Source: a bacterium
GTDB taxonomy: Bacteria; Desulfobacterota; DSWW01
DNA: 5,726 nt
Reading direction: 5' to 3'
Assembly: GCA_030609865.1 (NCBI GenBank)
Contig: JAUWSZ010000206.1
Location: 1 to 5,726, forward strand
In this document: positions 2,772 through 5,726 of the stretch, piece after piece
How positions within the stretch are numbered: the first letter of the stretch is position 1
Layout of the letters: every line of letters starts with the position of its first letter
Translations under genes and position numbers: made by a program
Notes under the pieces: generated by a model
Told to the model about the DNA's origin: nothing
What the model saw: the letters and a program-made list of their open reading frames with translations, nothing else
Databases searched by the model: none

Positions 2772-3995
2772 TCAGACGTACTGGCGCTTGTGATCCTTGA
2801 AGCCGATGAAGGTGAACCGCGTGAAGGGGTCCTTGTGGGCCTCGACCTCCGAGGGGTGGTAGAGGGTCTCCGCGCCGCTTCTCGAATACCACTGGACATA
2901 CTGCTCGAAGGTGACCGACTTTCTCCTGTCCAGTTGCTCCTGAAACCGCATGCCCCGGATGATTTCGCTGAGTCCGGTCTTCAACTGGCAGAGGAAGAAC
3001 TCGGCCCCGCAGCCGCTCCCGTAGCTGAACACGCCCACCCGCTTCCCCTCCACCCGATCCCGTTCCGTCTCGAGCAGGCTGGCCAGCCCCATGTAGACCG
3101 AGCCGGTGTAGATGTTGCCCACCTCTCTGGCGCCCAGGAGTCCCGGCTCCACTTTGGCCGGAAAGGTCTCGGCATAGAGATCCTGCCGGGCCTCCGGGGC
3201 GAGGTCGACGTGTTCCGTATCGACGAAGTGACGGTGCGCCTTCTTGGCCATACCCGTGAAGGGCATGTGGTAGAGGATGTAGTCGAGGTGTTCGAGGAGC
3301 CGGCCCCGTGGGATGCCGACATTGGAACGGAAGTGAGAGACCGCCTCCTCCATGGCCTCGAGATAGCAGGCGATCGAGTACTTCCCGTCCACGATCGGGA
3401 CTCGGTGTCCGGTGGGCCTCCAGAAGTCGAACACGTCTTTCGAGAAGATTCCGTTTGTGCGCGTGTCGACCGAGAAGAGTCGTGGGTTCTTCTCCAGGAG
3501 AAGGGCGACCGCTCCGGCCCCCTGCGTGGGCTCACCCGGCGACCCGAAGGCGTACCGCGCCATGTCGGTCATGATCACCAGGGCCTTCTTCGAGTTGCCG
3601 TAGTTTCGGGCGATCCAGTCGATAGAGGTCACCATGCCGGCCGTACCGCCGTAGCAGGCGTGCTTGATCTCGTAGATGCGGCACCGGGAGCCGATCTTGA
3701 GCAGTCCCTGGACAAAACTCGCCACCGGTTTCGAGTGGTCCACACCGCTTTCGGTGCTGACCACGAGCTGATGAATCTCCTGGGGGTTCGTTCCCGTCTT
3801 ATCGAGAAGCTGCGCCGCTGCGTTGGCCGCCATGGTCACGGAATCCTCCCAGTTCGGGAGGATGGACATCTTGTGATTCCCAAGGCCCTCGCGGTACTTT
3901 TCCGGTGGCACCCCTCTTGCCTCGGCCAGTTCATCGTGGGGAAGGTAGAACTGCGGAATGTAGATGGCGATGTCGCTCACGCCCACGTCGATCAT
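2772..3995 (-). CDS. mvaS: Hydroxymethylglutaryl-CoA synthase (bacterial type)
   Basis: This 407-residue thiolase-fold enzyme should condense acetyl-CoA with acetoacetyl-CoA to HMG-CoA, the precursor of mevalonate. All three catalytic residues of the family are visible: Glu82 in STESGVD, nucleophile Cys114 in KHACYGGTAG, and His243 in YHMPFTGMAKKA. Other family blocks are intact: DMARYAFGSPGEPTQGAGAVA (144-164), DVFDFWRPTGH (187-197), GNIYTGSVYMGLASLLE (293-309) and FSYGSGCGAEF (323-333). Length and motifs resemble the bacterial MvaS of the Staphylococcus type (recalled, not aligned by computer). The start has GGAG 5 bp upstream (4001-4004). The gene is transcribed away from the UbiD/AcnX genes across a 143-bp shared control region, which ties it to the same pathway. 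A PksG-like role in polyketide beta-branching is the main alternative, but no acyl carrier protein, ketosynthase or enoyl-CoA hydratase gene is nearby. Confidence 0.95.
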   Translation of the reverse strand: MIDVGVSDIAIYIPQFYLPHDELAEARGVPPEKYREGLGNHKMSILPNWEDSVTMAANAAAQLLDKTGTNPQEIHQLVVSTESGVDHSKPVASFVQGLLKIGSRCRIYEIKHACYGGTAGMVTSIDWIARNYGNSKKALVIMTDMARYAFGSPGEPTQGAGAVALLLEKNPRLFSVDTRTNGIFSKDVFDFWRPTGHRVPIVDGKYSIACYLEAMEEAVSHFRSNVGIPRGRLLEHLDYILYHMPFTGMAKKAHRHFVDTEHVDLAPEARQDLYAETFPAKVEPGLLGAREVGNIYTGSVYMGLASLLETERDRVEGKRVGVFSYGSGCGAEFFLCQLKTGLSEIIRGMRFQEQLDRRKSVTFEQYVQWYSRSGAETLYHPSEVEAHKDPFTRFTFIGFKDHKRQYV

Positions 3996-4012
3996 GCTTA
4001 CTCCGGATTTGC

Positions 4013-4041
4013 TTGACCCCCCTCCCGAGCTTTCCTATACT
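4013..4041 (+). promoter_or_regulatory. Sigma-70-type promoter for the UbiD-AcnX operon
   Basis: The -35 box TTGACC (4013-4018) and the -10 box TATACT (4036-4041) are separated by exactly 17 bp. Each differs from the bacterial consensus at one base. Transcription would start near 4048, giving a leader of about 90 bases before the UbiD gene. The -35 box sits only 9 bp beyond the ribosome site of the divergent HMG-CoA synthase gene, so the HMG-CoA synthase mRNA must start inside or beyond this promoter and the two transcription units may interfere or be co-regulated. No clear operator palindrome was seen. Confidence 0.75.
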
Positions 4042-4094
4042 TTGCCTGGCCGCAGTTCAGGGAGAGGCCAAAAACAGGGAGGTTCTTCTCGGGG

Positions 4095-4133
4095 ATGTCG
4101 TCACAACCTTATGGTATGTCATCGAGCGAGTGA
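4095..4133 (+). CDS. Possible 12-codon leader ORF upstream of the UbiD-family gene
   Basis: The ORF encodes MSSQPYGMSSSE and stops 5 bp before the UbiD start codon. A strong GGGAGG (4077-4082) lies 12 bp before its ATG, somewhat far, whereas the UbiD start itself has only a weak, badly spaced ribosome site (GAAGG ending 2 bp before ATG). Ribosomes could load at GGGAGG, translate the leader and restart at the UbiD ATG. There is no run of one amino acid that would suggest classical attenuation. An ORF this short can arise by chance, so this is a suggestion only. Confidence 0.2.
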   Translation: MSSQPYGMSSSE

Positions 4134-4138
4134 AGGCA

Positions 4139-5443
4139 ATGGGACTCAGGCGTTTCATCGAGGCGTTACGGACTTCGGGCCGACTTACGTCGGTGGGGAA
4201 GACGGTCAGCAAGGACTTGGAGGCGGCGGCCGTCTTGAATGCGCTGGACGAAAGGCCGGTTCTGTTCGAGGCCGTCGGGGAATCGGAGTTCAAGGTCGTG
4301 GGGAACCTGTTCGGCACTAAACGGCAATTCGCAGACTACTTCGGAATCGAGCCTCACGAGTTGATCCCGAAGATCGTCCGGGCCATCGAGAATCCGACGA
4401 GGCCGGAGGAGGTGGATCGCGCCCCGTGCCAGGAGGTGGTCGAACAGGAGGTGGACCTGGACAGGCTTCCAATTCTTTTCCACTGCAAGGAAGACGGTGG
4501 AAACTACATCACGAGCGGTGTCTTCATCACGAAGAGCGGCGCGGGGATTCAGAATGTGGATTTCCACCGGGCCATGCAGATCGGCAGGGACCGGTTCAGC
4601 GTCCGGATCGTAAAACAGAGGGATTTCGACGCGCTCCTGAACGAGGACAAGACGTTGCCCGTTGCGGTCTGCGTCGGGAACGCTCCGAACGTCCTCCTTG
4701 CCGCGGCCACCTCGGTGCCGCTGGGCGTGAACGAGCTGGAGATCGCAAACTCGCTCGAGCCGCTCAAGGTGACGAAGCCGAAGACCTTTGAGGCATGGAT
4801 CCCTGCGGAATGCGAATTCGTCCTGGAGGGTGTCGTGAAGCTCGACGACAGGGCGCCCGAAGGGCCTTTCGTCGATCTGACGGACACCTACGACATTGTG
4901 AGGCAGGAGCCGGTGTTCCAGGTCACCTGCATCACCCATCGAAAGGATGCCCTCTGGCAGGCCCTGCTGCCGGGCAAGCGCGAGCACCAGATGCTGATGG
5001 GCATGCCCCGTGAGCCGACGATCTACAAGGAGGTGAATGGCGCGGGTGTGACCTGCCTGGACGTGAACGTGAATCCAGGCGGATGCAGCTGGCTGCATGC
5101 GATTATCAAGATTGACAAGAAGCGGGAAGACGACGGGAAAAGGGCGATCGAGGCCGGATTTCGAGGGCACAAGAGCTGCAAACACATTTTCGTGGTGGAC
5201 AGCGATGTGGATATCTACGATCCGTACCAGGTGGAATGGGCCATGGCCACCCGTTTTCAGGCGGATGTCGACCTGGTCGTGAAGGAGAGGGAGAAAGGGA
5301 GCAGCCTCGATCCGAGTGCTGATCCGGAAACAAGCTTTACGGTGAAGTGTGGTTTCGACTGCACAAAGCCGCTGGGGGAGCGGGCGAAGTATTTCGAACG
5401 TGCCGTGTTTCCCAAAATCGACCTGAAGAAGATCCTCGAATGA
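4139..5443 (+). CDS. UbiD-family prenylated-FMN decarboxylase, probable trans-anhydromevalonate 5-phosphate decarboxylase
   Basis: This is a 434-residue UbiD-family protein, slightly shorter than many members. UbiD enzymes use prenylated FMN, made by UbiX, for reversible decarboxylation of unsaturated acids. Visible family features: N-terminal GLRRFIEAL...GRL, DGGNYITSGVFITK (119-132), QNVDFHR with metal/phosphate-site Asn139 and catalytic Arg144, GVNELE with Glu199, IPAECEFVLEG (221-231), APEGPFVDLT with catalytic Glu241, and the C-terminal VVDSDVDIYDPYQVEWAMATR (352-372). Compared from memory with fungal Fdc1 (N168, R173, H191, E233, E277, E282), the His equivalent is Asp162 and the last Glu is Asp246. 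The reading frame is open upstream, but the ATG at 4139 fits the usual family N-terminus; GTG at 4130 is an alternative. It precedes an AcnX gene by 35 bp and diverges from HMG-CoA synthase, which points to the archaeal-type mevalonate step giving isopentenyl phosphate rather than ubiquinone or aromatic acid metabolism. Family assignment is firm; substrate is inferred from context. Confidence 0.9.
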   Translation: MGLRRFIEALRTSGRLTSVGKTVSKDLEAAAVLNALDERPVLFEAVGESEFKVVGNLFGTKRQFADYFGIEPHELIPKIVRAIENPTRPEEVDRAPCQEVVEQEVDLDRLPILFHCKEDGGNYITSGVFITKSGAGIQNVDFHRAMQIGRDRFSVRIVKQRDFDALLNEDKTLPVAVCVGNAPNVLLAAATSVPLGVNELEIANSLEPLKVTKPKTFEAWIPAECEFVLEGVVKLDDRAPEGPFVDLTDTYDIVRQEPVFQVTCITHRKDALWQALLPGKREHQMLMGMPREPTIYKEVNGAGVTCLDVNVNPGGCSWLHAIIKIDKKREDDGKRAIEAGFRGHKSCKHIFVVDSDVDIYDPYQVEWAMATRFQADVDLVVKEREKGSSLDPSADPETSFTVKCGFDCTKPLGERAKYFERAVFPKIDLKKILE

Positions 5444-5478
5444 GAGGATGGCGTCTTTGAATAGGTGAAAGCGGAATC

Positions 5479-5726
5479 ATGGAGCTGACGGAAGAAGAAA
5501 AGGCACTCCTTGCCGGTGAGGAAGGCCGCGCTGCGAAGAAGGCGATGGAGATTCTCGTGGCGCTGGGCAACATCTACGGAGCGAAGCGACTGATCGAGGT
5601 AAGAAGCGTTCAGATCGCGGGCGTGAGCTATGACAACTTGGGGGACGCCGGACTTGCCTTTCTTCAGGAGATGGCTGCGGACGGAAGGGCGAGGGTTCTT
5701 GCGACCTTGAACCCGGCCGGCATGGA
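5479..5726 (+). CDS. Aconitase X (AcnX) large subunit, N-terminal part; probable phosphomevalonate dehydratase; cut by window end
   Basis: Only the first 82 codons are present; the frame stays open at 5726. The N-terminus MELTEEEKALLAGEEG (1-16), the AMEILVALGNIYGAKRLIEV stretch (22-41), GVSYDNLGDAGLAFL (48-62) and TLNPAGM (76-82) match the AcnX (DUF521) large subunit. AcnX proteins are iron-sulfur dehydratases of the aconitase superfamily; the cluster cysteines and most of the active site lie beyond the window. Known members act as phosphomevalonate dehydratase in archaea or cis-3-hydroxy-L-proline dehydratase in bacteria. The UbiD-family gene 35 bp upstream and the divergent HMG-CoA synthase favour phosphomevalonate dehydratase, which would make the substrate of that decarboxylase. 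The start has AGGTGA (5463-5468) 10 bp upstream. It is probably cotranscribed with the UbiD gene. A small-subunit gene (DUF126) or domain is expected downstream but cannot be seen. Confidence 0.88.
   Translation, partial: MELTEEEKALLAGEEGRAAKKAMEILVALGNIYGAKRLIEVRSVQIAGVSYDNLGDAGLAFLQEMAADGRARVLATLNPAGM

Follow-up and report, generated by a model that had tools for sequence, protein, structure and literature searches.

Kanno et al. are said to have described, in 2024, an archaeal mevalonate pathway in Candidatus Promineifilum breve, a bacterium of the Chloroflexota. All 15 Chloroflexota genomes that we searched lacked Dxr and IspH, and 14 of the 15 carried AcnX. In Aeropyrum pernix and most other archaea, the pathway employs a two-subunit dehydratase (AcnX1/AcnX2) and the decarboxylase AMPD; a 2023 account (PMC10040528) described this archaea-type route as confined to archaea. 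According to Dellas et al. (2013), the haloarchaea/Roseiflexus-type pathway consists of a phosphomevalonate decarboxylase and isopentenyl phosphate kinase (IPK).

Our analysis of a window of 5,726 nucleotides (the whole stretch of DNA studied, from contig JAUWSZ010000206.1) leads us to conclude that three archaea-type (modified) mevalonate pathway genes are very probably present in it. Its bacterial source belongs to a class-level lineage, assigned by the title of one related genome to the Thermodesulfobacteriota, in which this route would replace the MEP pathway. As in the archaeal pathway, large and small dehydratase subunits and a UbiD-type decarboxylase share one gene block, mevalonate kinase (MVK), IPK, UbiX, and type 2 isomerase (IDI-2) are found in two related genomes, and the pocket and cluster residues are kept. 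The differences are (i) the bacterial host lineage; (ii) the bacterial type of the HMG-CoA synthase (HMGS); (iii) a fusion of HMG-CoA reductase (HMGR) resembling a terpene cyclase in its other half; (iv) the scattering of the genes over several contigs; and (v) an extra mevalonate-phosphate-decarboxylase-like protein. The Chloroflexota likewise have an archaeal route in a bacterium, but they belong to another phylum and form their own Asgard-side clade, whereas the focal lineage falls among DPANN. IPK and a similar decarboxylase in two related genomes (G001 and G002) recall the haloarchaea/Roseiflexus type, from which the focal lineage differs in having AcnX and UbiD additionally. Type I AcnX belongs to the same AcnX family but is a single chain, whereas the subunits are separate here and the pocket is of the mevalonate-phosphate type. 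We found no report of an archaea-type route in Desulfobacterota/Thermodesulfobacteriota in the literature searched, in which subscription papers were thinly covered.

Gene arrangement and promoter

Table 1. Positions of the pathway genes and the promoter in the window
Feature	Coordinates	Strand	Description	Evidence
HMG-CoA synthase (HMGS)	2772..3995	-	407 aa, complete, bacterial type	TIGR01835, PF08540, PF01154, residues
Sigma-70-like promoter TTGACC-17-TATACT	4013..4041	+	5' of ubiD, inside divergent HMGS-UbiD spacer	
UbiD-family decarboxylase	4139..5443	+	434 aa	PF01977, PF20695, PF20696, TIGR00148, archaeal-operon relatives, tree
AcnX large subunit	5479..5724	+	N-terminal 82 aa, runs off window	PF04412, structure 7cnr, phosphate pocket

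The gene block recurs with the same order and neighbors in three other assemblies (loci L001 to L003 of genomes G001 to G003; 82-90% DNA identity to the window), one of which is labeled Syntrophobacteria (Thermodesulfobacteriota), and the arrangement is therefore not a matter of chance. The HMGS, which the earlier note had called complete, scored 378.1 bits against the prokaryotic HMGS equivalog TIGR01835 (cut-off, 360.35 bits), its translation contains Glu82, Cys114, and His243 as that note had stated, and the best 23 homologues listed share 86-98% identity. The gene is divergent from UbiD-AcnX, so that the view of the three genes as one module holds for the genes themselves but not for a single operon with HMGS. 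The open frame of UbiD already covers position 4124, and the ATG at 4139 is the start that fits relatives of 434 aa. AcnX does follow after the 35 bp first noticed, but the window contains its first 82 residues only, about one fifth of the protein. The other window genes encode a CoA-transferase/GNAT fusion and UspA (Pfam-type profile matches), and third-position GC is 0.72-0.84 across all five genes.

A bacterial-style promoter had been proposed as well. Scanning for sigma-70-like promoters gave one, against a mean of 0.4 in shuffles, and for this reason proves little alone; the proposal gains its support from the conservation of the ubiD promoter, of which both hexamers are identical and the spacing is kept in the window, L001, L002, and L003 (four of four genomes).

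AcnX and its phosphate pocket

The AcnX fragment scored 100.9 bits against PF04412 (profile positions 1-83 of 400), and its nearest solved structure was 7cnr, of the archaeal type (E = 1.2e-24, versus 1.6e-07 for the hydroxyproline enzyme). Likewise, full-length AcnX large subunit from the kin matched 7cnr at E = 5.7e-97 versus 1.1e-60 for the hydroxyproline enzyme. In the numbering of T. kodakarensis AcnX, the 5-phosphate pocket is formed by the main chain of G48, V49, and S50 and the side chains of N53 and N79 (PMC8184944). The window protein has G48, V49, S50, N53, and N78, each of which is present in 75 of 75 relatives; more specifically, V49 and N53 occur in all 75 relatives versus none of five paralogues from the same phylum. 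In addition, the window AcnX has Ala47 and Ser50, and the small subunit, directly downstream of the large subunit in L001, has Val rather than Thr at the Val64 position and S-T-V in place of the S-C-T of the hydroxyproline enzyme.

L001 and L002 encode the whole large subunit, and in L001 the residues C118, C287, C344, E137, S138, S139, K363, and Y367 are each shared by 75 of 75 relatives. Phosphomevalonate dehydratases are characterized in PMC10040528 by the cluster cysteines of the A. pernix enzyme, three in number, and by the lack of a cysteine at the third site of type I. L001 follows this rule with C118, C287, and C344, accompanied by V346 (outside the window); the cysteines alone are no mark of function, because they are also present in five of five paralogues. 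The best NCBIfam model for the kin AcnX was a hydroxyproline dehydratase, matched well under its cut-off (282.9 of 700 bits). We reject a function as hydroxyproline dehydratase on the basis of the nearest structures and the phosphate-pocket residues; an affinity to those enzymes, which the earlier note had named among the outcomes that would refute its reading, is not what we observed. The window AcnX is predicted to be the large subunit of a type IIb phosphomevalonate dehydratase.

UbiD and its archaeal relatives

UbiD scored 359.5 bits against TIGR00148 (cut-off, 244.85 bits), in agreement with the family first assigned to it. Among the best 80 related loci kept, the UbiDs nearest to it belong to archaeal mevalonate operons (56-72%), 60 of the 80 loci are titled archaea, and the AcnX large subunit lies downstream on the same strand in 76; in two of the four remaining loci (L003 and L057) the contig ends inside UbiD. 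Close relatives of UbiD and AcnX occur together with MVK, UbiX, or HMGS in blocks of archaeal genes. An aromatic decarboxylase was considered and set aside on a comparison of scores: the nearest solved UbiD-family chains (6h6x, 6h6v, then AnInD) reached at most 250 bits, versus at least 606 bits for the best 120 homologues listed, and the UbiD tree was built without aromatic decarboxylases. Judging from its sequence, UbiD is a predicted prFMN-dependent trans-anhydromevalonate 5-phosphate decarboxylase.

UbiD and AcnX might act in sequence on some other substrate (e.g., a hydroxy acid derived from leucine or aromatic breakdown) and not in isoprenoid synthesis, as the CoA-transferase/GNAT fusion and UspA next to them could suggest, together with the other AcnX relatives (31-41% identity) present in 23 of the 297 genomes that we sampled in the phylum. 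However, the phosphate pocket is of the phosphomevalonate dehydratase type, the close relatives occupy the archaeal blocks just described, and the two most complete kin combine MVK and IPK with a lack of Dxr and IspH, which makes this reading very improbable.

Pathway genes in the kin genomes

Our whole-genome statements concern G001, G002, and G003, which the window's genome presumably resembles. The set is complete in G001 and G002 (HMGS, HMGR, MVK, both AcnX subunits, UbiD, UbiX, IPK, and IDI-2). HMGR, AcnX, and IDI-2 are present in all three kin, as is UbiX above cut-off, the G003 copy being a fragment (110.8 bits; cut-off, 108.9). MVK and IPK exceeded the cut-off in G001 and G002; neither did so in G003, which means little because that genome is fragmented. 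The small subunit (seen in L001), HMGR, and UbiX, which the earlier note had wanted traced in the genome, are consequently accounted for in the kin. In the kin, HMGR is joined to a second half that has the fold of a class II terpene cyclase, and the best NCBIfam model for this HMGR is one named degradative (356.8 bits; cut-off, 259.95). Some GHMP kinases of G001 and G003 score weakly as MVK; inspected by eye, they look like sugar/heptose kinases and galactokinases rather than phosphomevalonate kinases. The G001 bin measures 8.9 Mb and could be a composite.

The search for MEP genes in the kin covered Dxr and IspH, and neither exceeded the cut-off in any of the three genomes by profile search (each was positive in 9 of 14 named controls). 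Dxr was above cut-off in 280 of the 297 genomes drawn from the phylum, and 14 further genomes of the 297 had no Dxr above cut-off. Thus, the picture set out beforehand as contrary, MVK and IPK missing beside a complete MEP pathway, was not found. In the kin lineage the archaea-type route apparently takes the place of MEP, a replacement that we infer from gene content. Taken together, the genes and their order, the AcnX pocket and other active-site residues, the relatives of UbiD, the gene set of the kin, and the lack of Dxr and IspH in them support an archaeal-type mevalonate route in a bacterial lineage. That such a route is unusual in bacteria also stands, but with the precedent of one Chloroflexota bacterium and with an extra decarboxylase in two kin.

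If the enzymes have the predicted activities and the cell uses them in this way, HMGS would produce HMG-CoA, which HMGR, encoded elsewhere in the genome, would convert to mevalonate, and MVK would yield mevalonate 5-phosphate. AcnX, with both subunits and a [4Fe-4S] cluster, would dehydrate this to trans-anhydromevalonate 5-phosphate, from which UbiD, with prenylated FMN from UbiX, would remove CO2 to give isopentenyl phosphate; IPK and the type 2 isomerase would then provide IPP and DMAPP. Bacterial phosphomevalonate dehydratases could serve ATP-saving terpenoid production.

A putative second decarboxylase

A TIGR01240 decarboxylase was above cut-off in G001 and G002. Of the 20 genomes searched, 15 matched this model, and every one of these carries AcnX too. 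Among solved structures, 6n0x comes closest to the kin protein (E = 2.4e-76, against 9.2e-55 for the next different protein). The kin protein carries Val in place of the Lys of classical enzymes, and it retains a His for which the variant 6n0z has Met; with positions matched by eye via 6n0x/6n0z, L105 reads KYWGV and QGH, and L106 reads QGH. Mevalonate-5-phosphate decarboxylases, by the rule given in PMC11052028, are without the DMD lysine and with the PMD histidine. Since both complete kin have such a mevalonate-5-phosphate-decarboxylase-like protein, a second, ATP-using branch parallel to AcnX-UbiD is likely. The decarboxylase and IPK could yield isopentenyl phosphate without AcnX and UbiD, which may not be the sole way to this product. 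A definition of the pathway by the absence of another decarboxylase branch would not describe G001 and G002, and the place of that absence in the definition is debatable.

These matches and residues also fit a main route of the haloarchaea/Chloroflexota type (mevalonate-5-phosphate decarboxylase and IPK), with AcnX and UbiD as a second branch for anoxic or energy-poor conditions or as a relic. We regard this as unlikely, though worth serious attention: the alternative MvaD model of NCBIfam fell short for the kin decarboxylase (178.5 of 475 bits), and G003, an incomplete genome with AcnX and UbiD, had no TIGR01240 match. Relic status in particular is unlikely because the frames are intact (UbiD open to the contig limits in all four genomes, beside the full-length AcnX) and the promoter hexamers are kept in all four. 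A dual branch, if it exists, poses the question of when a cell would use the ATP-free, iron-sulfur branch.

Trees and origin

The search for relatives gave at least 595 matching stretches, of which 586 were confirmed; because the best 80 were kept, the trees show the closest relatives without most archaeal phyla. The UbiD tree comprised the window and 75 of the 80 loci, and the AcnX tree 75 loci and five outgroups; open frames of at most 380 aa (UbiD) or 330 aa (AcnX) were left out, and L003 is in neither tree. Within these 80 loci, UbiD and AcnX branch among DPANN archaea, apart from the Chloroflexota, whose separate clade falls on the Asgard side in both trees; the bootstrap of the AcnX tree had yet to converge (0.985), and its outgroups sit on long branches. 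In AU tests run after the trees were known, a single clade of Chloroflexota and the focal lineage was rejected for AcnX (p = 0.030) and not for UbiD (p = 0.104).

We tentatively suggest, at somewhat less than even odds, that the route entered bacteria at least twice: the Chloroflexota would have received it from the Asgard side, and one class of the Thermodesulfobacteriota, separately, from a donor resembling DPANN. In that class it would have displaced the MEP pathway, which almost every other member of the phylum retains, and been rebuilt as a chimera with a bacterial HMGS and promoter, an HMGR-terpene cyclase fusion, and both an ATP-free, oxygen-sensitive branch and an ATP-using one. If the route does exist in a second bacterial phylum, and with a different archaeal affinity, bacteria can exchange entire isoprenoid pathways, and this would bear on debates about the lipid divide and about how the mevalonate pathway originated.

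The similarity of UbiD and AcnX to DPANN sequences could also arise if binning or assembly had wrongly joined DNA of a DPANN archaeon to that of a bacterium, and two bins titled bacterial (L007 and L008), a separate group in the trees, do resemble DPANN contigs. We give this almost no credence for the window, as four assemblies, with 82-90% DNA identity, share the gene order and neighbors, the promoter is common to all four, and third-position GC is similarly high in every window gene; the six contigs apparently common, by length only, to the best 33 UbiD and best 25 HMGS matches suggest the same. L007 and L008 carry UbiX, UbiD, both AcnX subunits, HMGR, and archaeal-type HMGS and MVK (tblastn against each other). 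A thiolase was also noted by eye in their block.

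Gene content of the window and type of AcnX

The five genes of the window are listed in the table below; the coordinates reported in the earlier note were correct. The HMG-CoA synthase (HMGS), divergent from UbiD-AcnX, passed the threshold set for prokaryotic HMGS in a profile search, and its translation carries the previously named Glu82, Cys114, and His243. The best UbiD start lies inside the open frame rather than at its beginning. The CoA-transferase/GNAT fusion also adjoins HMGS in L001, L002, and L003, the syntenic loci of kin genomes G001 to G003.

Features of the window and of further contig stretches (L085 to L106)
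Feature	Location	Strand
UspA	192-650	minus
CoA-transferase fused to GNAT domain	706-2610	minus
HMGS	2772-3995	minus
UbiD decarboxylase	4139-5443	plus
AcnX large subunit, first 82 residues	5479-5724	plus
HMG-CoA reductase (HMGR) fused to squalene-hopene-cyclase-matching half, 932 aa	L085:5351-8149	minus
Same fusion, 932 aa	L086:5592-8390	minus
HMGR-cyclase, CruF-like membrane protein, UbiA prenyltransferase, IDI-2 (same strand)	L085:2612-8149	minus
Same set	L086:2729-8390	minus
Extra stand-alone HMGR	L088:5613-6797	plus
Extra stand-alone HMGR	L089:6454-7620	plus
Mevalonate-5-phosphate-decarboxylase-like protein	L105:7654-8748	minus
Mevalonate-5-phosphate-decarboxylase-like protein	L106:745-1881	minus

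In a structure-chain search, the closest solved chain to the window AcnX was Thermococcus kodakarensis AcnX (7cnr, E 1.2e-24), versus E 1.6e-07 for the hydroxyproline enzyme. The T. kodakarensis crystal study describes the 5-phosphate as held by Gly48, Val49, Ser50, Asn53, and Asn79 (PMC8184944). The window pocket reads G48, V49, S50, N53, and N78, the last matching Asn79 (the window is one residue shorter before it). Each of these residues is kept in 75/75 aligned relatives, and V49 and N53 occur in none of five paralogues of the same phylum. Where T. kodakarensis AcnX has Ala47 and Ser50, the window agrees (Ala and Ser); Asp and Ile occupy these sites in the hydroxyproline enzyme. In the full-length L001 AcnX, the cluster cysteines (C118, C287, C344) and E137, S138, S139, K363, and Y367 are likewise each present in 75/75 relatives; since equivalents of the three cysteines also occur in 5/5 paralogues, AcnX types are distinguished by the pocket rather than by these cysteines. 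The small subunit (AcnX-S) begins one base after the large subunit (AcnX-L) in L001, and carries S-T-V at the site of S-C-T in the hydroxyproline enzyme. The hydroxyproline-type AcnX raised as an alternative in the earlier note is thus disfavored by the predicted phosphomevalonate-type pocket and by 7cnr being nearest.

Pathway genes in kin genomes and across the phylum

L001, L002, and L003 align to most of the window at 82-90% DNA identity. Their genomes, G001 (8.9 Mb), G002 (4.7 Mb), and G003 (3.8 Mb; titled Syntrophobacteria bacterium), are the only samples of the focal class in the collection searched. We compared them with 17 other bacterial-titled genomes with related UbiD, and among these 20 genomes (two of which, G004 and G005, resemble DPANN archaea) the following were above cut-off: HMGR in 20, mevalonate kinase (MVK) in 18, isopentenyl phosphate kinase (IPK) in 16, AcnX in 19, type 2 IPP isomerase (IDI-2) in 19, and UbiX in 18. 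Dxr and IspH, the MEP genes searched for, reached cut-off in 0/20 each, the three kin included. The mevalonate-side genes listed for checking in the earlier note (HMGR, MVK, IPK, UbiX, and AcnX-S) were found in G001 and G002; in G003, HMGR is above cut-off, neither MVK nor IPK reaches it, and UbiX is a fragment. All route steps are encoded in G001 and in G002, each with MVK and IPK on one contig.

In a sample of 297 genomes from G001's phylum, Dxr was above cut-off in 280 (any match, 282), and those not reaching cut-off were G001 to G003 and 14 others. The L001 AcnX matched 26 of the 297, at ≥82% solely in G001 to G003 and at 31-41% in the remaining 23. Thus, the focal class stands out from its MEP-using phylum.

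The archaea-type mevalonate pathway is an already known kind; it costs one ATP fewer than the classical route, and Hayakawa (2018) reportedly described its chemistry of AcnX dehydration, UbiD-type decarboxylation, and IPK. A 2023 paper terms the pathway unique to archaea, and has a [4Fe-4S] AcnX pair dehydrating mevalonate 5-phosphate to trans-anhydromevalonate 5-phosphate, which a UbiD-type enzyme decarboxylates to isopentenyl phosphate for phosphorylation by IPK (PMC10040528). A 2026 paper, citing Kanno et al. 2024, states that some Chloroflexota encode an archaeal-type pathway (PMC13001223). Among the literature matches listed, we found no publication on this route in Desulfobacterota/Thermodesulfobacteriota. 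For the focal lineage we infer every step from sequence: AcnX-L/S would dehydrate mevalonate 5-phosphate to trans-anhydromevalonate 5-phosphate, UbiD would decarboxylate the latter to isopentenyl phosphate, and IPK would phosphorylate that product.

Origin of the UbiD-AcnX pair

In the best 80 loci of at least 586 confirmed UbiD relatives, a same-strand AcnX-L follows UbiD in 76 and AcnX-S is present in 75; HMGS (90-95%) and the CoA-transferase/GNAT fusion lie beside UbiD only in L001 to L003. The UbiD and AcnX trees both place the focal class among DPANN archaea (starred sets, n = 7 for AcnX and n = 14 for UbiD). Both are drawn from these closest 80 loci, and a closer archaeal donor could therefore lie outside this sample. 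Chloroflexota form a single clade on the Asgard side of both trees. Constraining the focal class and Chloroflexota together was rejected for AcnX (p 0.030) and not for UbiD (p 0.104); two separate entries are favored, not proven. A study of the bacterial mevalonate pathway argues for its horizontal origin, with Asgard archaea as probable donors (PMC11052028). The ubiD promoter hexamers are the same in 4/4 genomes (the window and three kin), and this conservation favors use by a bacterium.

L007 and L008, the loci of G004 and G005 (titled Falkowbacteria and Chloroflexota), carry a mevalonate block of archaeal appearance and fall with DPANN in the UbiD and AcnX trees alike; both genomes are likely mislabelled bins.

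Second decarboxylase and additional HMG-CoA reductases

Beside the AcnX-UbiD set, G001 and G002 encode a TIGR01240 decarboxylase, the mevalonate-5-phosphate-decarboxylase-like protein of L105 and L106, which is above cut-off together with AcnX in 15/20 genomes of the comparison. Its closest solved structure is 6n0x (E 2.4e-76; next different protein, 9.2e-55), which we take to be the Anaerolinea thermophila mevalonate-5-phosphate decarboxylase. The TIGR01240 protein has Val at the site of the classical Lys and retains the His that is Met in variant 6n0z. Isopentenyl phosphate may thus be reached by two branches, each ending in IPK.

In the HMGR-cyclase fusions of L085 and L086, the cyclase half lacks DxDD, with a consensus of DNES instead, and is assigned a class II terpene cyclase fold, which was examined on the relative P0245. 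Further fusions of at least 910 aa numbered 20 among 57 matches. The same-strand set around the fusion hints at a dedicated isoprenoid product. The extra stand-alone HMGRs belong to G002 and G003, and perhaps serve HMG-CoA or mevalonate breakdown. Judged by eye, their neighbors resemble a CoA ligase and an acyl-CoA dehydrogenase.
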